The notes under the pieces: generated by a model
What the model was told of the DNA's origin: nothing
Databases searched by the model: none
Seen by the model: the letters and a program-made list of their open reading frames with translations, nothing else
Origin: Microbacteriaceae bacterium VKM Ac-2854
GTDB taxonomy: Bacteria; Actinomycetota; Actinomycetes; Actinomycetales; Microbacteriaceae
Length of the DNA: 64,000 nucleotides
Assembly (NCBI GenBank): GCA_013205085.1
Contig: JABMLH010000002.1
Location: 189,425 to 253,424, forward strand
Reading direction: 5' to 3'
In this document: positions 2,946-14,177 of the stretch, one piece after another
Layout: the number at the start of each line of letters is the position of its first letter
How positions within the stretch are numbered: position 1 is the stretch's first letter
Made by a program: the position numbers and the translations under genes

Positions 2946-3814
2946 CCGACCCACCGCCGCTCCTCCGGGAGCCGGGCGATCGCCCGCATGATCCGATACG
3001 CGACGACGGTGAGCACGGCGCCCGAGGCCAGGATCCCGATGCCGAGCGCACTGTTGTACGCATCGACGGCCTCGGGCCGCGTCGCGAGCAGCGCGAGCAC
3101 GATCCACGGCGCCACCGCGCCGAGCCGGGCGGCGTTCATCACCCAGCCCTGGCGCGCTTCGAGCTCGGCGCGGACAGCGGCCTCCGAGCGGAGGTAGCGA
3201 CCGAGGCCGACGAGCACCGCGGCCAGTTCGCTGCCGCCCACCTCGCGCGCCATCCGCAACGTCTCGAGCAAGCGATCCGCGGTGGCGTCGCCGAGCCGGA
3301 ACTTCAGGCGCTCGATGCCGTGCGAGAAGTTGCCGGTCGCCCGGTACTCCCGGCCGAAGTCGGCGAACTCCGCCCGCGTCGCCGGCGGGCCCGCTGTCGC
3401 GAGCGACGCCAGGGCGTCCGGCAGCGACAGTCCGGAGCGCACGGCGGCGACGAGGTGGTCGACGATGTCCGGCCAGACGGCTCGGGTGCGGCGGCGGCGC
3501 AGATCGGCGCGCCAGATCACCACGAGGGTCGGCCCGCACAGACCCAGCAGCCCGGCGCCGGCGCTCACCGCGATCAGGCCGGTGAACGCGATGGTCAATC
3601 CGAGCGCCGCCACTGCGCAGACGAACGAGAGCCCGACGAAGACAGGAAGCGGCGCATCCGGCAGGCCCGCGAGCACGAGCCGTGCGCGCAACGCCGCCGC
3701 GGGGCGGGACATCGAGCGGGAGCGGGCGGTCGGATCCGTCGTCCGCGGCCAGAGCAGCGGTGCGGAGATGAGCACAAGACCGACCCCGAGCAGCAGGCCG
3801 AGTGCGACGCTCAC
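2942..3814 (-). CDS. tadB: TadB-like type II secretion system F family protein
   Basis: A 290-aa membrane protein with two N-terminal helices (residues ~1-20 and ~60-100), a GspF-type cytoplasmic domain (around V-R-S-G-L-S-L-P-D-A-L-A) and C-terminal helices. It is the usual partner of TadC in Flp/Tad pilus assembly. Its ATG overlaps the stop of the tadA 3' fragment by 4 nt (3811-3814). The tadA disruption upstream probably reduces or abolishes its expression and function, unless a promoter inside the inserted element reads through. Confidence 0.8.
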   Translation of the reverse strand: MSVALGLLLGVGLVLISAPLLWPRTTDPTARSRSMSRPAAALRARLVLAGLPDAPLPVFVGLSFVCAVAALGLTIAFTGLIAVSAGAGLLGLCGPTLVVIWRADLRRRRTRAVWPDIVDHLVAAVRSGLSLPDALASLATAGPPATRAEFADFGREYRATGNFSHGIERLKFRLGDATADRLLETLRMAREVGGSELAAVLVGLGRYLRSEAAVRAELEARQGWVMNAARLGAVAPWIVLALLATRPEAVDAYNSALGIGILASGAVLTVVAYRIMRAIARLPEERRWVG

Positions 3815-4587
3815 GCGGCACCCCGCAGGATGCTGACGGGGTCGATCCCGGCGGCCTCGTACTTGCCCAGGCGCGCCGGGTGGCTACCGGAGGGGCGCAG
3901 TTCGCCGCCGCTGATCGCGAAGATCGGGCTCGCTTCGATGACCGAACCGGTCACGGACCCGGTCACGGCGAGGATCTCGGCGACCCGGCGCCGACCGTGC
4001 CGGTCCCGTTCGCAGTGCACCACCAGGTCGACGCAGTTCGCGACGGTCGGCACCACGAACGCGGCGTCGATGTTGCGGCCGGCCAGCAGCGGCAGCGTGG
4101 ACAGCTTGACCAGTGCATCGCGCGCGCTGTTCGCGTGGATGCTGCACATCCCCGGGACGCCGCTGTTCAGGGCGATCAACAGGTCCAGACTCTCGGCCTC
4201 GCGCACCTCGCCGACGACCAACCGATCGGGTCGCATCCGCAGCGCTTCCTTGACCAGGCGACGCAGGGTGATCTCGCCGTTGCCCTCCAGGCTAGGCTGT
4301 CGGCACTGCAGCGCGACCACGTCGCGGGCCGAGAGGTCGAGTTCGAAGGTCTCCTCGACCGTGACGATGCGCTCGTCGGCCCGCGCAGAACCGAGCAGCG
4401 CCCCGAGCATCGTGGTCTTGCCGGTGTGGGTCGCGCCGCTGACGAGGATGTTCGCCCCGGCCAGAACCGACGCGCGCAGGAACGCCGCGGCCGGCTGCGG
4501 CATCGAGCCGGCGGCGACGAGGTGACCCAGCTCGCGCATCCGCCGCGAGAACTTGCGGATGTTGACCGAGACGTACCGGCGCGTGAT
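3811..4587 (-). pseudogene. tadA: tadA, 3' fragment (C-terminal ATPase domain) cut off by an insertion
   Basis: This stretch encodes the last 258 residues of a TadA/CpaF secretion ATPase: Walker A G-A-T-H-T-G-K-T, an acidic VEETFEL box, Walker B-like R-L-V-V-G-E-V-R-E-A-E, and the His box C-S-I-H-A-N-S. Family homology begins at the isoleucine codon at 4585-4587 (ITRRYVSVNIRKF). Upstream of that the frame runs into unrelated sequence, giving a chance ATG at 4623 (MDSCIHCNWRGF). The missing N-terminal half lies at 11987-12439. Joining the two gives an intact 409-aa protein in frame. Confidence 0.85.
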
Positions 4588-4599
4588 GAACCCTCGCCA

Positions 4600-4640
4600 G
4601 TTGCAGTGAATGCAACTGTCCACGCTTGCAATCGATGCCT
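4600..4640. repeat. TTGCA-N5-TGCAA inverted repeats at the left end of the element
   Basis: Arms gttgca (4600-4605) and tgcaac (4611-4616) flank a 5-nt spacer. A degenerate second copy, ttgca/tgcct with a 5-nt spacer, lies at 4626-4640. The same arrangement recurs at 4740-4754 over the recombinase start. Repeated spacing and arm sequence suggest protein-binding sites, either recombinase arm sites or operators for the small HTH protein encoded downstream. Confidence 0.55.
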
Positions 4641-4708
4641 ATTCGGCTACTACGGTGCCGAAGTGTTCCGACCATAACAGCGTGATCTCGCGGATGCGGA
4701 GATCTGGG

Positions 4709-4736
4709 TTGACACGGTGATGCATCGTCCCATACT
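4709..4736 (+). promoter_or_regulatory. Promoter of the recombination module
   Basis: A perfect -35 box TTGACA (4709-4714), a 16-nt spacer and a CATACT -10 box (4731-4736, 4 of 6 consensus bases). The expected transcription start falls around 4742-4744, only about 5-7 nt before the ATG at 4749, so the mRNA would be leaderless or nearly so. No Shine-Dalgarno sequence precedes that ATG, which agrees. Confidence 0.6.
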
Positions 4737-4739
4737 TTG

Positions 4740-4754
4740 TTGCATCTAATGCAA
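4740..4754. promoter_or_regulatory. Palindrome overlapping recombinase transcription and translation start
   Basis: TTGCA (4740-4744), a 5-nt spacer and TGCAA (4750-4754) form a perfect palindrome spanning the predicted transcription start and the ATG at 4749. A repressor bound here would block initiation. The HTH protein encoded by the second gene of the module is the obvious candidate, by inference only. Confidence 0.5.
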
Positions 4755-5867
4755 GATTTTGGGGCCTCTCCAGCGGCGCTTCGGCTGATCACGTCAGCAT
4801 CGAACGTCGCACTGGCGAACCCGGAAGCGCAGGTTTTCAGCGCGATGATCGATGGTTGGCGGAACCAGCAGCTGTCGCGCGGGCTCCGTGAGCAGACGAT
4901 CCGGAACCGGACAGCGACGGTGACGCGGTTCCGTGATTTCGTGGACAAACCGCCTTGGAAGTGGACTGTCGCGGATGTGGATGAGTTCACTGCGGAGTCT
5001 GGTGGTCGCACCCGGACGCTGTCGACGATGCGCGCCAACCATGGGTCTATCCGTGGTTTCTGTGACTACCTTACGAACCCGTTGTACGACTGGATGGATA
5101 TCTGCGATCACGAGTTTGGGGAGGTTCCGTCACAGGTGTGCCTGCCGTGGAACACGGTGGCGCACCGGTTCGAGTTCGAAGGCGATGGGAAGCGTCGCCC
5201 CTTCACGTACGACGAGATCGAGCGCCTGTTCGATACGGCCGACGCCCGCGTCGAGCTGCTCGTGAACTCTGGGCGAAAGGGTGCGCTCGGCGCGTTGCGG
5301 GATGCCCAGTTGCTGAAGACGGTCTACGCGTTCGGTCTGCGCCGCACCGAGGCGGTGATGCTCGATGCCGTCGACTTGCACCACAACGCGAAGATGCGCC
5401 AGTGGGGGCGCTACGGCTCGGTCCACGTGCGATGGGCGAAAGCTGCGGGCGGTGGCGCGCCACGACGTCGCACGGTGCTGCTGGTGCCGGAGTTCGACTG
5501 GTGGGTCCCCGGCATGCAGCAATGGCTCGAGCAGGCTCGGGCGCGCTTCGCGCCCGGAGACGACCTCGACGCGCTCTGGGTGACTGAGCGCCGTACGCGT
5601 CTGTCTGCCGGGTATCTTGACCGGAGGTTCGCGGAGCTGCGTGACGAAGCCGGCCTGTCGAAGGATCTGACGCTGCACAGCCTCCGGCATTCCTATGTCA
5701 CGCACCTGCTGGAGTTCGGGTACGCCGATCGATTCGTCCAGGAACAAGTCGGACACATGCATGCCTCGACGACCTCGATCTACGCCTCCGTCAGCTCGGA
5801 CTACAAGAACCGGGTGCTCGCGGAAGCGCTGAAGGCCCTCATCGAAGGAGAAGCTGATGACTGTTGA
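4749..5867 (+). CDS. Site-specific tyrosine recombinase
   Basis: A 372-aa protein with a core-binding N-terminal domain (residues ~15-110) and a catalytic domain. The full tyrosine-recombinase set is visible: R198 in A-F-G-L-R-R-T-E, H310-S-L-R313, H336 in V-G-H-M-H-A-S-T-T, and nucleophile Y345 (S-I-Y). It should cut and rejoin DNA to move the element. The ATG at 4749 is used because a promoter lies just upstream; TTG at 4737 is an alternative within the promoter. Its last codons overlap the next gene by 11 nt, so the module is one operon. Closest family by eye is XerC/D-like integrases. It is not closely similar to serine recombinases. Confidence 0.88.
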   Translation: MQDFGASPAALRLITSASNVALANPEAQVFSAMIDGWRNQQLSRGLREQTIRNRTATVTRFRDFVDKPPWKWTVADVDEFTAESGGRTRTLSTMRANHGSIRGFCDYLTNPLYDWMDICDHEFGEVPSQVCLPWNTVAHRFEFEGDGKRRPFTYDEIERLFDTADARVELLVNSGRKGALGALRDAQLLKTVYAFGLRRTEAVMLDAVDLHHNAKMRQWGRYGSVHVRWAKAAGGGAPRRRTVLLVPEFDWWVPGMQQWLEQARARFAPGDDLDALWVTERRTRLSAGYLDRRFAELRDEAGLSKDLTLHSLRHSYVTHLLEFGYADRFVQEQVGHMHASTTSIYASVSSDYKNRVLAEALKALIEGEADDC

Positions 5868-6192
5868 GCTCGACACCGGCTGGAATCTGCGCAGCGTGAT
5901 GGCGTCGCGCGGGATCTTCCAGACCTCCAAGCTGAAGCCCCTGCTCGAGGAGCGCGGCATCGACCTGTCCCGGGAGCAGGTGTATCGGCTGGTGACTCAG
6001 CCGCCACGGCGCGTGCGTCTCGACGTGTTGGCGGCGTTGTGCGATGCGCTGGAGTGCTCGCTCGACGATCTCGTGACGATCACTCGCCGGCAGGCCTCGA
6101 CCCCGGTGGCGGTGGGCGAGGAGGCGACGCGCGGGTCGATCGGTGATCTTCGTCCTGTCCGCGCGACGATCCGTCGGCCGCTTACGAAGTAG
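5857..6192 (+). CDS. Small XRE-type helix-turn-helix protein of the recombination module
   Basis: A 111-aa protein. Residues ~12-72 form a Cro/C1-like helix-turn-helix (L-L-E-E-R-G-I-D-L-S-R-E-Q-V-Y-R-L-V, then R-L-D-V-L-A-A-L-C-D-A-L-E-C-S-L-D-D-L-V). The tail is basic and probably unstructured. It overlaps the recombinase gene by 11 nt and is followed 5 nt later by the zinc-ribbon gene. Likely roles are repressor of the module promoter (see the palindromes at 4600-4754) or a recombination directionality factor; the sequence does not decide between them. Confidence 0.75.
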   Translation: MTVELDTGWNLRSVMASRGIFQTSKLKPLLEERGIDLSREQVYRLVTQPPRRVRLDVLAALCDALECSLDDLVTITRRQASTPVAVGEEATRGSIGDLRPVRATIRRPLTK

Positions 6193-6197
6193 GCGCG

Positions 6198-8147
6198 GTG
6201 GCCAAGCCTCCGCAGTTGCCGCGAGTCGCTGAAGTCGTCGCTCTCGTCCGCCCTCTCGTTCCCGAGATCTCTCCCGAGCGACTCGCTGAGATCGTGCATT
6301 CGGTCGCGCCGGTGCCCCTCACGCAGCGGCTTCTTGAGCTCGCGCTGATCAAGCAGCCCGGAGTCCTGGAGGGGCAGCATGCGAACGTGCCAGCGACCGT
6401 TCAGGATCTGGCCCATGCGCTGGTCGAAGAAGGGGCGAGCCGGGTGGTGCTGCCGACGTGTGAGTCCTGCGGACGCGCGGTGAGAATGCCCCACAAGACG
6501 CCGGGCGGTGGTCGGCACTGCTCCCGATGCGAGCGGAACGCCCGGTCCGTCTCCTGCGCGTCCTGTGGCCGGGTCCGACCCGTGCAGCGCACAATCGACG
6601 GACAGCGCTTCTGCCGTGACTGTTGGCGAGCCGACCCTCGATCGTTCGGCGACTGCTCCCGGTGCGGTCAGCATGCGACCATCATCGTCCGTCGCCCGGA
6701 ACTCGTCTGTCTGGCCTGCTACACCGCACCGCTCAAGACCTGTGGTCTCTGCGGAGAACCTGGCCGGGTCGCCTCCCACCTCGACGGACGACGAGTATGC
6801 GCGCGCTGCTACTACGCGATGCGCAGACCACAACCTTGTCCCGAGTGCGCGCGCAGGGTGTTCCTGACTGGCTTCATGAACGGCCAGAAGGTCTGCGCCG
6901 ACTGCGCGGGCACTCCGATCACGATGGCCTGCCCCGGATGCGGCTCGATCGAGGAGATCCGCAAACATCAGCTTTGCGTCGAGTGCCGCCGGCCCGTCGC
7001 GATCCAGCAGCTGCTCGCCGACGATGCGGGAGAGATCCGCGAGGACCTCCACCCCCTTGCTGACTATCTGCTCACGCACCATGGCAAAGCGGCGTCGCTC
7101 GAACGCTGGCTGCACAAGAGCAAGTGCGCGATGGTGCTCCGCGAGCTCGCTGACGGGACCCTACCGCTCACCGCCGAGGCGATCATCACCCGAGCCCGGT
7201 CGGGACAGTCGGTCGCGTTCCTCCTCTCACTGCTGGTGCGTTCCGGCGTGCTGCCGGAGCTCGACGTCGAGGGCACGCGCTTCGACCACTGGCTCAACGA
7301 CTGGCTCGATGGCATCAAACATCCCGAGGACCGGCTGATCCTGCGCCGCTACTGCACCTGGGAGCTCCTCCGTTCCGCTCGGACACCGCGTAGCGCGTCC
7401 AGCCCGACTTCCGGCTTCCAGAGGCAACGGGCTGCACTGAAGTACTGCGCCGCGTTCCTTCGAGAGATCCGGTCGCACCAGGAGACGTTGGCGACGTTCC
7501 CGCAGCGCCGGCTTGACGCGTATCTGACCGATTCGCCCAGCCAACGCGACGCGCTAGCACCGTTCACTCGCTGGCTGCGAAAGCACCGACTGAGCACCCT
7601 TCGGGTCCAGTTTCGAGCCCATCGCCTCGAAGGGCGAGACTACGCCTCCGACCACCGATGGCAGATGGCCCGCAAGTTCCTATCCGATGCCGACATGGAC
7701 CCGAAGACGCGGGCGGCGGGTCTCCTCGTGCTGCTCTACGGCATCCAGCTGACCCGCATCGTCACGATCACCCGGGCACAGGTCGATACGAGCTCGCGGC
7801 CCGTGACACTCACCGTCGGGGCCGAGCCGATCGAACTCCCCGAGATCCTCGGCGACGCCATCGTCGAGCTCGTCAATGCCGCAAAGCGCCATCCTGAAGG
7901 GTGGTTGTTCCCCGGCAGGAACCCGGGCCGTCACCTCACCCCGGGGCCGCTCAGCCGTCGCCTTCGCACCGAAGGCCTGCTTGCTGGGAGCGCCCGCACG
8001 ACAGCGCTCATCGAGCTCACCCGGCAACTGCATCCCCGGATCGTCTCGGATCTCCTTGGCATCACAACGGCGTCCGCCGCTTCATGGTCGCGTCTCGCCG
8101 GCGGCGAATGGTCCGATTACCCGACGCTCCGCTCCACCCACGCCTGA
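6198..8147 (+). CDS. Multi-zinc-ribbon protein with degenerate integrase-like C-terminus
   Basis: A 649-aa protein with a GTG start at 6198, 5 nt after the HTH stop. Residues 88-263 hold twelve CxxC pairs (C88/91, 108/111, 120/123, 139/142, 153/156, 171/174, 182/185, 201/204, 214/217, 233/236, 245/248, 260/263), enough for six zinc ribbons. The C-terminus (~480-649) has the layout of a tyrosine-recombinase catalytic domain (L-L-Y-G-I-Q-L-T-R-I-V-T-I-T-R, then L-L-G-I-T-T-A-S-A-A-S-W near the end). The H-x-x-R box and a convincing nucleophile tyrosine are absent. It probably binds DNA and partners the active recombinase. Similar large XerD-annotated proteins occur in actinobacteria; I know of no defined function. 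Confidence 0.75.
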   Translation: MAKPPQLPRVAEVVALVRPLVPEISPERLAEIVHSVAPVPLTQRLLELALIKQPGVLEGQHANVPATVQDLAHALVEEGASRVVLPTCESCGRAVRMPHKTPGGGRHCSRCERNARSVSCASCGRVRPVQRTIDGQRFCRDCWRADPRSFGDCSRCGQHATIIVRRPELVCLACYTAPLKTCGLCGEPGRVASHLDGRRVCARCYYAMRRPQPCPECARRVFLTGFMNGQKVCADCAGTPITMACPGCGSIEEIRKHQLCVECRRPVAIQQLLADDAGEIREDLHPLADYLLTHHGKAASLERWLHKSKCAMVLRELADGTLPLTAEAIITRARSGQSVAFLLSLLVRSGVLPELDVEGTRFDHWLNDWLDGIKHPEDRLILRRYCTWELLRSARTPRSASSPTSGFQRQRAALKYCAAFLREIRSHQETLATFPQRRLDAYLTDSPSQRDALAPFTRWLRKHRLSTLRVQFRAHRLEGRDYASDHRWQMARKFLSDADMDPKTRAAGLLVLLYGIQLTRIVTITRAQVDTSSRPVTLTVGAEPIELPEILGDAIVELVNAAKRHPEGWLFPGRNPGRHLTPGPLSRRLRTEGLLAGSARTTALIELTRQLHPRIVSDLLGITTASAASWSRLAGGEWSDYPTLRSTHA

Positions 8148-8154
8148 TCGAGCA

Positions 8155-8466
8155 TCAGCCGTCCGAGCCCGGGCCGGAAATCGCTTCGCGCAGCTGCTCG
8201 ACAGTCGGAGACCCCGCCAGCCCGGCAGGGGTACGGAACACCCGGCAGGCGAGCCCGACGGGGGCGTGCTCGTCGGCGAAGGGATCGACGCCGTCGACGA
8301 GGACAGTCGGCGACCCGTGGAACCCGAGGTGCTCGGCGTCCTCGGCGGTCTCGACCAACTGCCGCGTGACGCGGATGTCTGATCGGCCATCGAGCAGCTC
8401 AGCAAGCCTGCCGTCGAGTATCTCCCAATTCGGGCAGCCGTCGAAGTACTGCAGGGTGATCTCCAT
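8155..8466 (-). CDS. Thioredoxin-like small protein of metal-resistance operons
   Basis: A 103-aa protein with a thioredoxin-fold layout: M-E-I-T-L-Q-Y-F-D-G-C-P-N-W at the N-terminus, then G-S-P-T-V-L-V-D-G-V-D-P-F (cis-Pro region). The usual CxxC is reduced to C11-P-N-W, with another Cys near residue 73. Relatives are often labelled thioredoxin family or alkylmercury-lyase-like and sit in actinobacterial mercury or metal operons. No other mer gene is present here, so mercury specificity is not supported. It is the last gene of the minus-strand cargo operon and converges on the zinc-ribbon gene with only 7 nt between the stops. Confidence 0.6.
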   Translation of the reverse strand: MEITLQYFDGCPNWEILDGRLAELLDGRSDIRVTRQLVETAEDAEHLGFHGSPTVLVDGVDPFADEHAPVGLACRVFRTPAGLAGSPTVEQLREAISGPGSDG

Positions 8467-8477
8467 AGTTGGTCCTC

Positions 8478-9002
8478 TCAGTTCTCGGTGCCGCGGATCA
8501 TCAGAAGCGCTCCGGCGATCGCCCCGGTGACGATCACGATGTCGGCGACGTTCCCGATGAACCAGTTGCCGTAAGCGAGGAAGTCAACGACGTGCCCGTG
8601 GGCGAACCCCGGTTGGCGGAAGAGCCGGTCACCGGTGTGGGAAGCCGCAGCCCCGCCGAGCGCACCGATCACGATCGCCCACCCAGGGCGTCGGACCCGG
8701 AACGCAAACACGATCGCGGTGACCGTTGTGGCGACGGCGATGAGAGCGAAAATCCAGGTGGAGTCCTCACCGAAGGAGAACGCCGCTCCGGGGTTATACG
8801 CGAGCTGCAGGCCCAGCAGGTCGCCGATCAGCGGGATGCGCTCGTGCTCCGACAGGGTGGCCTCGGCCCATGCCTTCGTCCCCTGATCGATCAGGACGAC
8901 GACCACGGCGATCAGGAGCGCCCAGGCAGTGAGCCGCCAGCGGCCCCCCTGCGGCTGCGCTCCCGACGTCGGCTCGACGTCGATGTTCGCGTCCGGGGTC
9001 AT
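8478..9002 (-). CDS. lspA: Signal peptidase II paralogue linked to metal resistance
   Basis: A 174-aa four-helix membrane protein. LspA boxes are visible: D39-Q-G-T-K, N70-P-G-A-A-F, G-D125-R-L-F and N-V-A-D154-I. D125 and D154 match the catalytic aspartates that cleave lipoprotein signal peptides. The usual G-N-x-x-D-R-L is S-H-T-G-D-R-L here, a mild departure. The ATG at 9002 overlaps the cadD stop by 4 nt. Accessory lspA copies in lead/cadmium operons (the pbrB/pbrC situation in Cupriavidus) are known; this one is probably such a copy rather than the housekeeping gene. Confidence 0.82.
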   Translation of the reverse strand: MTPDANIDVEPTSGAQPQGGRWRLTAWALLIAVVVVLIDQGTKAWAEATLSEHERIPLIGDLLGLQLAYNPGAAFSFGEDSTWIFALIAVATTVTAIVFAFRVRRPGWAIVIGALGGAAASHTGDRLFRQPGFAHGHVVDFLAYGNWFIGNVADIVIVTGAIAGALLMIRGTEN

Positions 9003-9607
9003 GCGAGGACCTCGAAGAGGCGGACGATGACGCCGGACTCGAACAGGATGAACAGGCCCAGACCGATGAACACGACCGGGACGAGCCAGTGCTCCACGCG
9101 CTCGAGGGTCTCGGTAACGGCCTTGTGAGTTCCGATCAGCCGACCGGCCGCGCACCAGACCGCGACGAGGATGAGGAACACGACGATCATGATCGCGACG
9201 TCGCTGGGGGCGCTCGTGCGGAAGATTGGCGTGTACAGGGAGATGTTGTCCGCCCCGTTGGCGATCGTGATACCCGCGACGCCCCACAGTCCGACCGCGG
9301 TGATCTTGGAGTCGTCGTCATCGTCATCGCCGTTGCGGCGCAGCCCGCGAAGGAGCGTCCAGATGCCGATGCCGAGCGGGATCAGACCCAGGAATCCGAC
9401 CCATTCGTCCGGGACGATGGTGAGGCCGAGGGCGGCGATCACGCTGATGACGACGAGGGTGATGAACCCGAGGTACTGGCCTGCGACGATCTGCCACGGC
9501 CGGGGTTTTCCTCGACTGGATGCGAGGAACAGCACGGTGAGCACGACGATGTCGTCGATGTTCGTTGCCGCGAACAGGCCGATCGCTGAACCGATGGTGG
9601 CGAGCAT
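8999..9607 (-). CDS. cadD: CadD-family cadmium resistance transporter
   Basis: A 202-aa membrane protein of about six helices, beginning L-F-A-A-T-N-I-D-D-I-V-V-L, the CadD hallmark near the N-terminus. The internal repeat I-T-I-A-N-G-A-D-N-I-S-L-Y is also typical. A run of six acidic residues with basic flanks (around residue 92-98) lies in a cytoplasmic loop. CadD proteins confer modest cadmium resistance by efflux. It is translationally coupled to lspA (4-nt overlap) and abuts the ATPase stop at 9607, consistent with a single operon controlled by the CmtR-type repressor. Confidence 0.82.
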   Translation of the reverse strand: MLATIGSAIGLFAATNIDDIVVLTVLFLASSRGKPRPWQIVAGQYLGFITLVVISVIAALGLTIVPDEWVGFLGLIPLGIGIWTLLRGLRRNGDDDDDDSKITAVGLWGVAGITIANGADNISLYTPIFRTSAPSDVAIMIVVFLILVAVWCAAGRLIGTHKAVTETLERVEHWLVPVVFIGLGLFILFESGVIVRLFEVLA

Positions 9608-11523
9608 CAGTTTTCCAGTTGTGGTGTGCGGGTGCGGGCGGCGCGCAGGCCGTTGAGGATCACGATGACCTCCGCGACCTCGTGGACCAGGACGACGGCC
9701 GCGAGTCCCAGGACGCCGAAGAGCGCGAGCGGGAGCAGCGCGGTGATGATCAGCAGCGACAGGATGATGTTCTGGTTGATGATCCGTCGACCGCGACGTG
9801 CGTGGTCGAACGCCCGCGGGATGAGGCGCAGATCATGGCCTGTGAAGGCCACGTCGGCGGATTCGATCGCTGCGTCGGAGCCGGTCGCGCCCATCGCGAT
9901 ACCGATGTCTGCGCCAGCGAGGGCCGGGGCATCGTTGATGCCGTCGCCGATCATCGCGACCGGTCCCGCCTTCGACAGTTCCGCGATCGCGGTCGCCTTG
10001 TCCTCCGGGCGCAGCTCCGCGCGTACGTCGCTGATCCCGGCCTGCGTGGCCAGTGCACGAGCGGTCCGGGCGTTGTCGCCGGTGAGCATCGTCACCCCGA
10101 CGCCCTGGCCGGTGAGTGTCCGCACAACGTCGGGTACTTCCGGGCGCAGTTCGTCGCGGACGCCGATCGCTGCGACCGGTGACCCGTCGCGGTGCACGAT
10201 GACGACGGTCATGCCCTGTTCTTCCAGCGCTGCGACCCGGTCCGCGAGGTCGCCGGCGTCCAGCCAGCGGGGGCTGCCGACGGTGATTGTCGATCCGTCG
10301 ACGGTGCCGTCGATGCCGTGCCCGGCCTGCTCGGTCACATCCGCAGCCGCCGGAGTCCCCGGCGCCGCGGCAGTGATCGCTGAGGCAAGAGGATGTGTGC
10401 TGTGCTGCTCCAACGCGGCCGCCCAGGCCAGAGCCTGAGCCTCGGTCACGCCGTTCGCAGTGAGCACGGCGGTGACCGCAGGTTCGTTGCGGGTGAGGGT
10501 GCCGGTCTTGTCGACGGCAACGTGGCGGACCGTGCCGAAGCGCTCGAAGACGGCACCGGACTTGATGATCACGCCGAACTTGCTCGCCGCACCGATCGCC
10601 GCGACGACAGTCAGCGGCACCGAGATAGCCAGCGCACACGGAGAAGCGGCGACCAGCACGACGAGCGCGCGGGTGATCCACACCTCCGGGTCGCCCAGCA
10701 GCGACCCGACGATCGCGACGAGCGCAGCGAGGATCAGCACGCCGGGCACGAGCGGGCGGGCGATCCTGTCCGCCAGACGAGCCCGCTCGCCCTTCTCCGT
10801 CTGCGCTTTCTCAACCAGCTCCACGATCGTCGTGAGCGAGTTGTCGGTGCCCGCAGCGGTCGCCTCGACCTCCAGGACACCGGCGTTGTTGATCGCACCG
10901 GCCGACACCGCATCGCCAGGCTCAACCTCGACCGGGATTGACTCCCCGGTGATCGCCGAGGTATCCAGGCTGGAGCGACCAGAACGCACGACCCCATCAG
11001 TTGCGATCCGCTCACCCGGGCGGACCACCATGACCTGACCGACCGTCAGCTCTCTCGCCGGCACCTGCGCGGAGACGCCACTCTGCAGCACGGTCGCTGT
11101 CTCCGGCACGAGCTTCAGCAGTGCCCGCAGCCCGCCGCGGGCGCGGTCCATCGCCTTGTCCTCAAGCGCCTCAGCGATCGAGTACAAGAACGCCAGAGCT
11201 GCAGCCTCCTCCACGTAGCCGAGGATGACTGCACCGATCGCGCTGATCGTCATCAGCAGCCCGATGCCGAGCTTGCCCTTGAACAGCTTCCGTATCGCGC
11301 CCGGCGTGAACGTCGACGCACCCAGCAACAGGCCGGCCCAGAACAGCACCAGCGCCGGGATCTCGAGGCCGGACCATTCGAGGATCAGACCGGCGAGGAA
11401 CGCAACGCCGGAGAAGACCGGCACCATGATCCCGCGGTCCCTCCACCAGGGCCGCTCCGCCTCTTCATGTTCTTCGCCCGACGTGGTTTCAGGCTCGTGC
11501 TCGCAGCCGCACGCCGCGCTCAC
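9607..11523 (-). CDS. cadA: P1B-type heavy-metal translocating ATPase with SPC motif
   Basis: A 638-aa pump. Phosphorylation site D338-K-T-G-T, T-G-E-S and G-D-G-I-N-D-A-P are all present. The intramembrane motif is S294-P-C instead of C-P-C, and the last helix reads H-E-V-A-E-V-I-V-I-L-N. This resembles the P1B-4 class (CoaT/CtpD) rather than classical CadA. There is no N-terminal HMA domain, only a short Cys/His/Glu-rich head (C-G-C-E-H-E). I chose GTG 11523 because it overlaps the cmtR stop (GTGA); a longer frame to 11577 runs into cmtR. Substrate by context is Cd/Pb/Zn; the SPC motif also allows Co or Fe. Confidence 0.85.
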   Translation of the reverse strand: MSAACGCEHEPETTSGEEHEEAERPWWRDRGIMVPVFSGVAFLAGLILEWSGLEIPALVLFWAGLLLGASTFTPGAIRKLFKGKLGIGLLMTISAIGAVILGYVEEAAALAFLYSIAEALEDKAMDRARGGLRALLKLVPETATVLQSGVSAQVPARELTVGQVMVVRPGERIATDGVVRSGRSSLDTSAITGESIPVEVEPGDAVSAGAINNAGVLEVEATAAGTDNSLTTIVELVEKAQTEKGERARLADRIARPLVPGVLILAALVAIVGSLLGDPEVWITRALVVLVAASPCALAISVPLTVVAAIGAASKFGVIIKSGAVFERFGTVRHVAVDKTGTLTRNEPAVTAVLTANGVTEAQALAWAAALEQHSTHPLASAITAAAPGTPAAADVTEQAGHGIDGTVDGSTITVGSPRWLDAGDLADRVAALEEQGMTVVIVHRDGSPVAAIGVRDELRPEVPDVVRTLTGQGVGVTMLTGDNARTARALATQAGISDVRAELRPEDKATAIAELSKAGPVAMIGDGINDAPALAGADIGIAMGATGSDAAIESADVAFTGHDLRLIPRAFDHARRGRRIINQNIILSLLIITALLPLALFGVLGLAAVVLVHEVAEVIVILNGLRAARTRTPQLEN

Positions 11524-11879
11524 GCGTCCGCCCCTGTACCGCAGCAGCCCGCCACCGTGCACGACGAGTCCACGCACGGCGCGTGCTCGTCGACAGCCAA
11601 CGTCACATCCACCAGCGCGACGAGCGCCGCCGCGAGGTGCGGGTCAGCGATCTCGTAACGCGTCTGCCGGCCCTCAGGCTCGGCGACCACGATCCCGCAG
11701 TCCCGCAGGCAGGTCAGGTGGTTCGACACGTTCGAGCGCGTCAGCTCGAGCTCACGGGAGAGCACGGCCGGGTAGCTCGGGCCGCTGAGGAGCGTCATCA
11801 GGATGCGGGAGCGCGTCGGGTCCGCCATCGCCCGGCCGAGCCGGTTCATGACGTCGAGACGAGAAGCAATAGTCAGCAT
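11520..11879 (-). CDS. cmtR: CmtR-type ArsR/SmtB metal-sensing repressor
   Basis: A 119-aa winged-helix repressor. It lines up almost residue for residue with Mycobacterium tuberculosis CmtR as I recall it (L-T-R-S-N-V-S-N-H-L recognition helix). The Cd/Pb ligands fall at the same numbers: C57, C61 (L-T-C-L-R-D-C-G) and C102 (H-A-P-C-V). Additional C-terminal cysteines (C107, C112, C113) are extra. It should repress its own operon (cmtR-cadA-cadD-lspA-trx) until Cd(II) or Pb(II) binds. The stop overlaps the ATPase GTG by 4 nt. Confidence 0.88.
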   Translation of the reverse strand: MLTIASRLDVMNRLGRAMADPTRSRILMTLLSGPSYPAVLSRELELTRSNVSNHLTCLRDCGIVVAEPEGRQTRYEIADPHLAAALVALVDVTLAVDEHAPCVDSSCTVAGCCGTGADA

Positions 11880-11880
11880 G

Positions 11881-11917
11881 TGCTGAACTATACAGCACTG
11901 GCTGACCTATCAGTGCT
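11881..11917 (-). promoter_or_regulatory. cmtR promoter and operator
   Basis: On the minus strand TATAGT (11887-11892) sits 7 nt before the ATG at 11879, the spacing of a leaderless actinobacterial promoter. A perfect 7-bp inverted repeat, agcactg (11894-11900) / cagtgct (11911-11917) with a 10-nt spacer, covers the region just upstream of the -10 box. An overlapping pair, tgctg (11881-11885) / cagca (11893-11897), straddles the -10 box. This is a plausible operator for the encoded repressor. Confidence 0.55.
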
Positions 11918-11986
11918 CCACCGCCAAGCGACGCAGGTACCGATTTCTCGTGAATACGCGACTCAGCAACAATCGGAGCTACCAGT

Positions 11987-12439
11987 ATCGGGCAGCACCA
12001 CGTGCAGCCGCGACTGATCCGGCAGCGAGGCGTCGACGAACGGGCTCGAGATGTCGATCCGGCGACCGGTCGAGACCAGCATGCGTTCGACGAGGTCGCG
12101 GATCTCGACCTCGCTGAGTCGCAGCGCCGTGTGCTCGGAGACTCCTGAGCGCGCCACGAAGATGCGGTCGGGCGCGTTGATCCAGATCTCCTCGATCTCG
12201 GGATCGTCCAGGAAGGGCTGCAACGGACCGAAGCCGGTGAGTGAGGCGACCACGTCGCGCACCGCCACCGCCTCATCGCGCAGAACCGGCAGCACTCCGC
12301 CCATCGCGCGCTCGCTGTAGCGGCGCACCTCTTCGCGGGCGTAGCGCTCCGCGAGCTCGGATTCGCTGTTCAGGTCGACCCCGTCGCGGCGGACGCGCTC
12401 GCGGACGTGGTCGGTGATCATTCGGACTGCCTCGTGCAT
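11987..12439 (-). pseudogene. tadA: tadA, 5' fragment (N-terminal domain)
   Basis: This encodes the first 151 residues of the TadA/CpaF ATPase: V-A-S-L-T-G-F-G-P-L-Q-P-F-L-D-D-P-E-I-E, E-I-W-I-N-A-P-D-R-I-F-V and D-A-S-L-P-D-Q-S-R-L-H-V-V-L-P-D. After the last aspartate the frame enters the inserted element and stops after seven foreign residues (stop at 11963). No Walker motifs are left, so the fragment cannot work alone. It was the first gene of the Tad operon. A 125-bp gap separates it from the HNH gene upstream, and the operon's promoter should lie there. Confidence 0.85.
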
Positions 12440-12564: not shown

Positions 12565-13905
12565 TCAGAACGGTGTCGGTCCGGGGAGGGGCGGCGGTTC
12601 CTCCGGGAACACTTCCTCTCGGAATCGCGGTCCGGTCGTCGCTCCGGGGACTTCGGGTGGTCGCGTCGTGACCTGCCTGCCGGTGGGGCTGGTCCACTCG
12701 GCGGTGCCGTCCCCGTGCATCCGATACGTCCACTGCTCGCCGTGGCGGACGTGGTGGTGTCCGACGCAGAGCGCGAGGAGGTTGTCGATGCTTGTGTGAC
12801 CGCCCTTGGCCCACTCGCGCGCGTGATCCAGGTCGGCACGGCTGGCAGGGCGGATGCAGCCCGGGAACCGGCACGTCAGGTCGCGGACCTCGATGTAGAC
12901 GCGCATCCCGTCGGGCGCGAAGCGGTGCAGCCGCTCGACCGAGATCAGCTGGCAGTTGACCGGATCGGTCAGCACGCGGTAGAAGGCGGAGCCGGTGCCG
13001 ACGAGTTCGCGGGCAATGTCGGCCGGGATCGGGCCGTAGCCGTCCAGCTCCGCGGGCTGCTCACCGTGACCGGTGGCAGTGAGGACGGGGACGGTGATGC
13101 GCACGTTCGCGCGCACGCCGGGCAGGAACGTGCGGACGCGCTCGCCACCGTCGGGGGTGGTGCCGGTGATGTCGCCGTCGGTGAGGATGTCCGCGCACGC
13201 GTCCGCGCGCAGTTGCGCGAGGGTGCGGGTCTCGGCTTCGTCGCTGCGCAAGGACCGCGCGATGCGGTCCATCCGGTTGTAGGCGCCCATCGCGAGGTGG
13301 GCGGGCAGCAGAGCGGACAGCACCGCCATCCCATTGCAGTCCGGGGTGACCCAGACCGCGCGGCGCTCGCGAGCCGCCTCGTGCCGAACAGTCAGCGATT
13401 CGATCTGCAACTCCTCCCGCAGCCGGGCGAGGGGCTTGCGCAGCTGGGTCGGGGTCAGCTCGCGCGCCAGATCCGCCGCGCGCCAGTCGTACTCGCCGCG
13501 CCGCTGCCGGGGCACGTCGCCGCCGACGTCGCAGATCAGCGCCCCCGCCTCCCACAGAATCCCGCCCACGAGCAGCAACTCCTTCGTCACGGGCAGGCCT
13601 TCCTCCAGCAGGATCGCCCGGTCGATCTCCCGCGACGCGACCCGCTCCGACACCCCCAGCGCGAGCGCGAGTTCCGCGCGGATCGACCGCTCGGCCAGGT
13701 CGGACACGTCTCCGAATGCTCGGGAGCGTGCGGACGCGAACACGTCCGGTCGGGCGAGCGCTGCGCGGTACGCGGCGTAGAGCTTGCCGGCGCTGTGCAC
13801 TTTCAGTGGCGCGCATTCCCGGGCGAGTGCTGCGGCCTCATCGCCGAGCTGGTGCACCGTGTGGCGCACCTGCTCCGCGGGTGGTGGTTCCTTCGCCTGA
13901 TCCAT
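12565..13905 (-). CDS. DUF222 / HNH endonuclease family protein, copy 1
   Basis: A 446-aa protein: a helical DUF222 domain (residues ~10-330; D-L-A-E-R-S-I-R-A-E-L-A-L-A-L-G-V-S) and a C-terminal HNH nuclease domain (F-P-G-C ... D-L-D-H-A-R-E-W ... N-L-L-A-L-C-V-G-H-H-H). The family corresponds to the mycobacterial 13E12 repeat proteins, which are multicopy and of unknown function. The ATG at 13905 (MDQAKE...) is chosen because the paralogue at 28466 begins with the same MDQ and shares the sequence just upstream; the longer frame would translate that conserved non-coding block. Confidence 0.85.
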   Translation of the reverse strand: MDQAKEPPPAEQVRHTVHQLGDEAAALARECAPLKVHSAGKLYAAYRAALARPDVFASARSRAFGDVSDLAERSIRAELALALGVSERVASREIDRAILLEEGLPVTKELLLVGGILWEAGALICDVGGDVPRQRRGEYDWRAADLARELTPTQLRKPLARLREELQIESLTVRHEAARERRAVWVTPDCNGMAVLSALLPAHLAMGAYNRMDRIARSLRSDEAETRTLAQLRADACADILTDGDITGTTPDGGERVRTFLPGVRANVRITVPVLTATGHGEQPAELDGYGPIPADIARELVGTGSAFYRVLTDPVNCQLISVERLHRFAPDGMRVYIEVRDLTCRFPGCIRPASRADLDHAREWAKGGHTSIDNLLALCVGHHHVRHGEQWTYRMHGDGTAEWTSPTGRQVTTRPPEVPGATTGPRFREEVFPEEPPPLPGPTPF

Positions 13906-13991
13906 ACGAGTATTCCAGCACGGACCACCGACACCGAACGCGCGCATCGGATGCATCCTCGAAAACTCGCCCCGAACCCCACCCTGTGGAG
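13899..13991 (-). promoter_or_regulatory. Conserved block upstream of HNH copy 1
   Basis: Read on the minus strand, the ~92 bp from tccacagggtgg (13990 downwards) through aatactcgtatggatca (the ATG) match the block before the second paralogue (28382-28474), with about ten substitutions and one single-base gap by eye. This is higher conservation than in the N-terminal codons that follow. It probably contains the promoter and perhaps a binding or cutting site. Confidence 0.6.
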
Positions 13992-14177
13992 GAACCGACG
14001 AGCCGCCGACGGCCGATCTCGTTCCATCGTCGCGCACTGCTTCCGCACCGAGGTGGGCAGAGCCCCGGCACGGAAACAGCAGGCCCGCTCAGCGTTTCAC
14101 CCCCGCTGCTGCACCTCGAGCCGGAGTCTCCCCGTCTCGGCGGCGCCGGTCTCGGCTCGGGATCGCGTCCACGATAT

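Follow-up and report, generated by a model that had tools for sequence, protein, structure and literature searches.

In this study, we characterised a 7,399-bp insert that splits the minus-strand tadA gene of Microbacteriaceae bacterium VKM Ac-2854 (host genome 4.75 Mb) and lies on a contig of 804,899 bp, within a stretch of 64,000 nucleotides that we refer to as the window. We propose, with a probability of roughly 0.8, that the insert is a Tsy-like tyrosine-recombinase transposon in which the tyrosine recombinase (YRec) OrfA acts as the catalyst and the TnsF-like protein OrfC acts as the target selector. Comparison across genomes supports this proposal at several levels, namely the gene content of the insert, the homology of its gene products, its ends, the flush empty sites of relatives, the targets shared among family members and the near-identical copies found at different sites. 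Since near-identical copies sit at different sites, we conclude that the element moves and that it does so with preferred targets; because umuC-type genes and other sites are used by the same family, tadA is one of several targets and not a dedicated attachment site.

An OrfA scan of a genome collection returned 32 loci, to which 99 relatives and two pattern scans contributed more; the pattern scans, covering 398 genomes of the family and 396 of the order, gave mostly weak matches and two new sites (L106 and L113, these labels being our own locus handles). The 26 distinct left junctions counted here are those that carry the left-end pattern without substitution, whereas matches with one or two substitutions, most of which were unrelated, were left out, L107 and L126 being possibly genuine. 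Seven of these junctions lie in tadA, eight at one site of umuC-type polymerase genes and 11 elsewhere, and common descent makes the sites non-independent within the tadA group as well as within that of umuC. Assignment to tadA follows the similarity of the flanks to those of the window, with L041 assigned by both gene halves, while assignment to umuC follows matches of the right halves of L047, L037 and L055 and of the intact L139 to Pfam IMS/IMS_C, with flank likeness for the remainder of the eight. The umuC copy in L024 has decayed, and one of the 11 other junctions (L059, 9134-9854) is in an umuC-type gene, oriented oppositely to the main umuC site and at another place in the gene. Elements that are 99.7-99.8% identical over 7.2-7.4 kb occupy tadA (L038, which a contig end cuts) and two other places (L036 and L040), and two 9.1-kb elements that are 99.6% identical occupy umuC (L047) and a position directly behind the right end of another element (L048). 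On the OrfA tree, a quick tree in which 14 of 23 rows are labelled and from which L113 is absent, the tadA and umuC labels are scattered; they require 5 changes, where shuffled labels require 4.8 on average. An earlier note on this DNA had suggested that insertion is site-specific at a conserved tadA motif and that tadA may be the attachment site of a family of elements. Our search of genomes for the same ends in tadA agrees with this insofar as the same position is interrupted at seven of the 26 junctions, by elements whose recombinases are 67-100% identical to OrfA of the window; the eight umuC-type and 11 further junctions do not agree with an exclusive role for tadA.

That the minus-strand segments 11987-12439 and 3811-4587 are the N- and C-terminal parts of one TadA, as previously proposed, is confirmed by their matches to positions 12-135 and 141-338 of the NCBIfam profile TIGR03819. 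Likeness of left ends among insertions in unrelated flanks starts exactly at AACC (4589), the preceding base differing, and an A follows CAGT in all accepted right ends. The accepted right ends exclude pattern matches on the opposite strand or outside the element end, which were taken as chance (L025, L026, L060 and the minus-strand rows of L040, L047 and L049); the excluded match in L025 has 2 substitutions and its next base is not A. In the nearest relative, L069 (~90% amino acid identity), the bases beside the junction of the empty tadA match the flanks in the window (...GTGATG/TCGGGCAGCACCACGTGCAG), and removal of 4589..11987 produces this empty site, GAC ATC, with no base gained or lost. 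We place the ends at 4589..11987 because AACC is common across unrelated flanks, A follows CAGT and the resulting join gives the GAC ATC of L069. The ends given earlier, 4588..11986, lie one base too far left and were rejected; they yield GAT and not the GAC of L069. The idea of an in-frame deletion fits the empty sites of relatives, and only its junction was one base off. The tadA halves abut with 0 nt between them in 29/29 loci of relatives (30 loci from 60 genomes, minus that of the window), so that no extra sequence is present at the junction, and the umuC halves do likewise in 3/3 intact loci (L138-L140). Relatives were compared at one genome per species, and the empty sites come from other species. 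The earlier observation that there is no target duplication was upheld.

A terminal inverted repeat, by contrast, had been reported as absent, and this was wrong: the ends form imperfect inverted arms offset by 6 bp. When left ends were compared with reverse-complemented right ends in 11 pairs, which are related and not independent tests, 119 of 220 positions matched at offset 6, against a mean of 51 at the other 24 offsets, and offset 6 was best in nine pairs. Inverted arms around a 6-bp core are the layout of a tyrosine-recombinase site. Of the 17 right ends listed, 16 have CCAGTA as their right core and the other, that of L040, has CAAGTA. This constancy is partly by selection, since CTACC and CAGT were part of the pattern that found most of the right ends. 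L025, L038, L043, L051-L054, L057-L059, L106 and L113 have no right end in the list. Where the right core was checked through the other half of the target gene, it was CCAGTA in 6/6 cases (the window, L037, L041, L042, L055 and L056, with L047 uncounted as the query). Left cores differ by site (GTGATG, GTCATG, ATCTCC and others). From these end points, the constancy of the right core implies that a circle would always take the right core along and leave the target as it was before.

A candidate target motif emerged from the spacing common to tadA and umuC insertions. The sequence AA[CT]T...TGT at -39 to -27 relative to the insertion point is common to both sets of flanks, with exceptions in umuC such as TCT or TAT for TGT. 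A matrix built from the seven tadA sites ranked position -39 at 1, 7, 7, 1, 4, 4, 6 and 2 of 388 on the eight umuC flanks, and the umuC matrix ranked it first on six of the seven tadA flanks and second on the other. With the combined matrix, the best placement was at -39 in three of the 11 other sites (L040, L054 and L106). The tadA and umuC motifs occur in unrelated genes and on opposite strands; it runs antisense across the NIRKF codons of tadA but sense across the SNYELYG codons of umuC, and we therefore regard the motif as one of DNA and not of protein.

The mobility module comprises orfA, orfB and orfC, all open, in this order from left to right on the plus strand, followed by a cadmium/lead (Cd/Pb)-resistance set on the minus strand (Table 1). 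The catalytic residues of OrfA are present in 18/18 aligned sequences, that of the window included, and its profile matches a YRec of Variovorax. OrfB matches the helix-turn-helix (HTH) protein of a Variovorax Tsy-like locus with an E value of 9e-13, and profile comparison matches all three proteins to the YRec-HTH-TnsF module of Tsy transposons. OrfC is, as judged from its sequence, catalytically incomplete; against PDB sequences it gave weak matches only, most of them to small Cys-rich proteins, zinc-binding ones included.

Table 1. Features of the element and its flanks, in coordinates of the window
Feature	Position	Strand	Basis
tadA C-terminal part with P-loop	3811..4588	-	TIGR03819 profile 141-338; Pfam T2SSE
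Target motif AACTTGCGGATGT, at -39 to -27 from the insertion point	4550..4562	+	tadA and umuC insertions spaced alike; ranks in cross-prediction
Left core GTGATG, 6 bp belonging to the target	4583..4588	+	Same in empty tadA of L069
Whole element (AACC...CCAGTA)	4589..11987	.	Ends common to insertions elsewhere; empty site in relative L069
Left recombination arm	4589..4608	+	Inverted match to right arm, offset 6 bp
Palindrome TTGCAGTGAATGCAA, left end	4601..4615	.	Putative operator or accessory site
OrfA, tyrosine recombinase, 376 aa, R202 K235 H314 R317 H340 Y349	4737..5867	+	Pfam Phage_integrase
Palindrome TTGCATCTAATGCAA, spans orfA start	4740..4754	.	TTGCAN5TGCAA form
OrfB, small Cro/C1-type HTH protein, 111 aa	5857..6192	+	Pfam HTH_26; match to HTH of Variovorax Tsy-like locus
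OrfC, TnsF-like, 649 aa, zinc ribbons and tyrosine-recombinase fold without catalytic Tyr	6198..8147	+	Profile comparison, fold model, alignment
DF-family protein	8155..8466	-	NCBIfam NF049942, 62.6 bits, under cut-off 70
Signal peptidase II (lspA)	8478..9287	-	Pfam Peptidase_A8, residues 126-263 matched
CadD-type cadmium transporter	8999..9607	-	Pfam Cad
Cd-family heavy-metal P-type ATPase	9607..11577	-	TIGR01512, above cut-off
CmtR Cd/Pb-sensing repressor	11520..11879	-	NCBIfam NF047906, above cut-off
Right recombination arm	11962..11981	-	Inverted match to left arm
Right core CCAGTA, nearly constant in family	11982..11987	+	Right-end comparison
tadA N-terminal part	11988..12439	-	TIGR03819 profile 12-135

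In the mechanism that we propose, OrfA would cut and rejoin DNA at the element ends, OrfC would read a motif of approximately AA[CT]TnCGnnnTGT, located on one side of the insertion point at a distance of 39 to 27 bp, and OrfB probably regulates or assists. The circle would hold the core CCAGTA between two inverted arms, with a predicted joint of ...CTACCAGTA/AACCC..., and on insertion the left side would retain the 6 bp of the target and the right side the CCAGTA of the element, giving a flush insertion. Precise excision would restore tadA, the predicted rejoined sequence being ...GTGATGTCGGG... We infer the circle, the excision, the order of strand exchange and the reading of the motif by OrfC from the comparisons above. 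Palindromes of the form TTGCAN5TGCAA are present at 4601-4615, inside the left recombination end, and at 4740-4754, and similar ones precede orfA in several homologues; possibly these are operators of OrfB that tie expression to recombination.

Several observations weigh against the proposal of a Tsy-like transposon with OrfC as selector. OrfC has no Tyr at the nucleophile position in 16/16 aligned sequences (W in 11, H in 5), and for ZooTsy both YRec and TnsF catalysis are described as essential (Faure et al. 2023, PMC10293859). A comparison of OrfA and OrfC sequence profiles was not significant (2.3%), and the equivalence of OrfC residues therefore rests on a fold model and the Variovorax alignment. 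The comM gene was not recognised among the targets here, and the circle and excision are predicted from sequence end points. In L055 and L056, two of the 11 arm pairs, offset 13 scored slightly above offset 6. The best placement of the motif was not at -39 in eight of the 11 other sites; two of these eight lie directly or within ~30 bp after the right end of another element. When longer stretches were scored against shuffles of the same flank, the fit was also good for L057 (p 0.0005), weak for L039 and L051 (0.03) and absent in the other five.

The lack of Tyr could also be read differently, in that OrfC may be an active recombinase by way of a displaced Y641, which would make the element an ordinary Tsy with new targets. 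That Y641 and R505 are present in 16/16 sequences and R600 in 14/16 lends support to this idea, as does the need of ZooTsy for TnsF catalysis (PMC10293859). However, the residue at the spacing of the Variovorax Tyr, 9 from a conserved G, is W630 and not Y641, which lies 11 residues further on, and at the HxxR place (597-600) a His is absent from all 16 sequences, five of which have an HxxR elsewhere in their C-terminal part. We consider an active OrfC doubtful. Less credit still is due to an element of the type of the strand-biased circularizing elements (SEs) and Tn554, which would carry 6 bp from the left of its donor into the right of each new site as a footprint. With SEs (PMC10214605) the element has in common a 6-bp core between imperfect inverted arms and a small number of selected targets, but the right core stays at CCAGTA in all listed right ends except that of L040, and in every case checked via the target gene, despite left cores that depend on the site, and the gene content is another one, with three genes and intact catalytic residues in one of them; such an element is improbable here.

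The notion of an integrative island specific to tadA, with tadA as the attachment site and a common core as in phage integration, draws on the seven junctions at the same tadA position and on the exact fit of the empty tadA of relatives. It is largely refuted by the 19 junctions at the umuC-type site (8/26) and elsewhere (11/26), by near-identical elements in tadA and in other sites, and by the absence of a flanking direct repeat such as a shared phage core would give, and we attach very little weight to it. We regard as equally remote the idea that the insert is a decayed remnant or an assembly artefact without mobility: the recombinase search found a single close copy in the host genome, as this idea would have it, but the three genes are open, near-identical elements sit at different sites in other hosts and the contig extends over 804,899 bp. 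The Tsy-like transposon with OrfA as catalyst and OrfC as selector is the explanation that we retain.

Several further arrangements were seen among family members. In L048 (9837-9900), the right end CCAGTA of one element is followed immediately by the left end of another, and in L046 (3025-9853) a tadA-inserted element has a second one ~30 bp further on. Should target reading be confined to the left, newly arriving copies would insert on the left of older ones. In L061, L062, L063, L064 and L065, orfA is cut at residue 274 with the same join to foreign sequence, and right ends are seen in L061-L063, which suggests that a disabled copy was inherited or spread in these five genomes. In L044 and L045, and in L049 and L050, OrfA is shortened by 19 to 27 residues at its N terminus, and other sequence, shared within each pair of genomes, takes the place of the left end. 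The element of L042, 88% identical to that of the window, is on a contig assigned by binning to Verrucomicrobia, for which misbinning may be a better explanation than transfer between phyla. Two genomes, G004 and G023 (contig C1 in each), have several remote OrfA homologues; two of those in G004 share their upstream sequence and lie ~150 kb apart, and two in G023 lie near either end of the contig. Among 72,556 plasmid records, 636 hold relatives of OrfA, one of them at 60-80% identity, and 289, mainly from Streptomyces and Rhodococcus, hold relatives of OrfC, none at 60% identity or above. In the four Acinetobacter matches listed, the likeness is confined to the zinc-ribbon part of OrfC, and in the two that were inspected it lies beside tniQ.

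Cargo differs between elements, judging by 10 predicted proteins of four elements, with three of the proteins falling into no family: L024 carries two P-type ATPases and a DUF305 protein, L047 a P-type ATPase, L055 an MFS transporter, and L056 an epimerase-like protein and an HTH protein. In the element of the window, the true start of lspA lies inside the open reading frame listed in Table 1, because the Peptidase_A8 match begins well within it. Beside tadA, a 490-aa open reading frame (12565-14037) matches DUF222 of Pfam.

Tsy has so far been characterised on one target, comM (PMC10293859), and the family described here offers a natural set of cases in which one module has changed targets (tadA, umuC and others). 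With its junctions known to the base and a candidate motif at a constant distance, the DNA rule of a TnsF-like selector can be put to the test. The family also poses the mechanistic question of whether a tyrosine-recombinase transposon can function with a selector that is dead. Our data suggest that Cd/Pb resistance may move among Microbacteriaceae and their neighbours at the cost of pilus or SOS-polymerase function. More tentatively, one might picture a large actinobacterial Tsy-like branch with split labour, in which one active recombinase does the chemistry and a dead recombinase-zinc-ribbon fusion only aims at motifs common to unrelated genes. On this picture excision would be scarless, since the 6-bp core on the left belongs to the target and always remains there, and insertion could be a reversible off-switch for Tad pili (tadA) or SOS mutagenesis (umuC) while metal resistance is carried along.

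Among known systems, SEs, Tn554 and GInt resemble the element in their use of tyrosine recombinases and selected targets (PMC10214605, PMC5385486), and SEs and Tn554 also in their imperfect inverted ends and 6-bp cores (PMC10214605). SEs and Tn554 are described as putting donor-derived bases at the right (PMC10214605), whereas the constant right core here means that there is no donor footprint of this kind. Their gene sets as described (intA-tfp-intB-srap for SEs, tnpABC for Tn554 and ginABCD for GInt) also set them apart from the three genes found here, one of them with intact catalytic residues. We considered whether the element belongs to the actinobacterial Tn554-like group of Van Houdt et al. 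2012 and rejected this as far as pBD2 and pREL1 show, two plasmids listed as holding Tn554-like elements (PMC3414803, Table 2); a search run without a positive control found no OrfC match in either, and the OrfA matches were remote only. The TnsF of the Tn7-like Tn6022 is homologous to OrfC, and both have an inactivated tyrosine-recombinase part tied to target choice, as would be the case for OrfC here; Tn6022 differs in having TnsA/B/C, target-site duplications and insertion in comM (PMC10293859). The element of the window has the tyrosine recombinase OrfA in their place, and no duplication. TnsB is a DDE transposase.

The closest likeness is to Tsy, described as having a YRec, an HTH protein and a TnsF-like protein, with or without a GIY-YIG nuclease, and as inserting in comM, with target information within 40 bp upstream and a circle junction of AATCCCAGTC/AAGTTCTGAT (PMC10293859). 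The element of the window shares with it an intact YRec, a small HTH gene downstream and a zinc-finger TnsF-like gene, in the same order, as well as insertion inside a conserved gene; the ZooTsy circle junction CCAGTC/AAG resembles CCAGTA/AAC here, and the upstream target information corresponds to our motif at -39 to -27, as defined by comparison (PMC10293859). We found no nuclease among the element genes scanned with Pfam, a difference from nuclease-bearing Tsy, and Tsy relatives without GIY-YIG have been reported (PMC10293859). The listings of our literature searches showed no tadA- or umuC-targeted Tsy member, although the 1,099 TnsF homologues of PMC10293859 may include actinobacterial ones. 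The element differs from Tsy in its actinobacterial hosts, in its targets (tadA, umuC and others, across the 26 junctions, in place of comM), in an OrfC whose sequences lack the catalytic Tyr where ZooTsy requires TnsF catalysis, and in its recognisable inverted arms and 6-bp core, of which PMC10293859 reports none detected. We therefore file the element as a variant of Tsy, since an active TnsF and insertion in comM are the two tested features that fail, while its module, junction and geometry fit.

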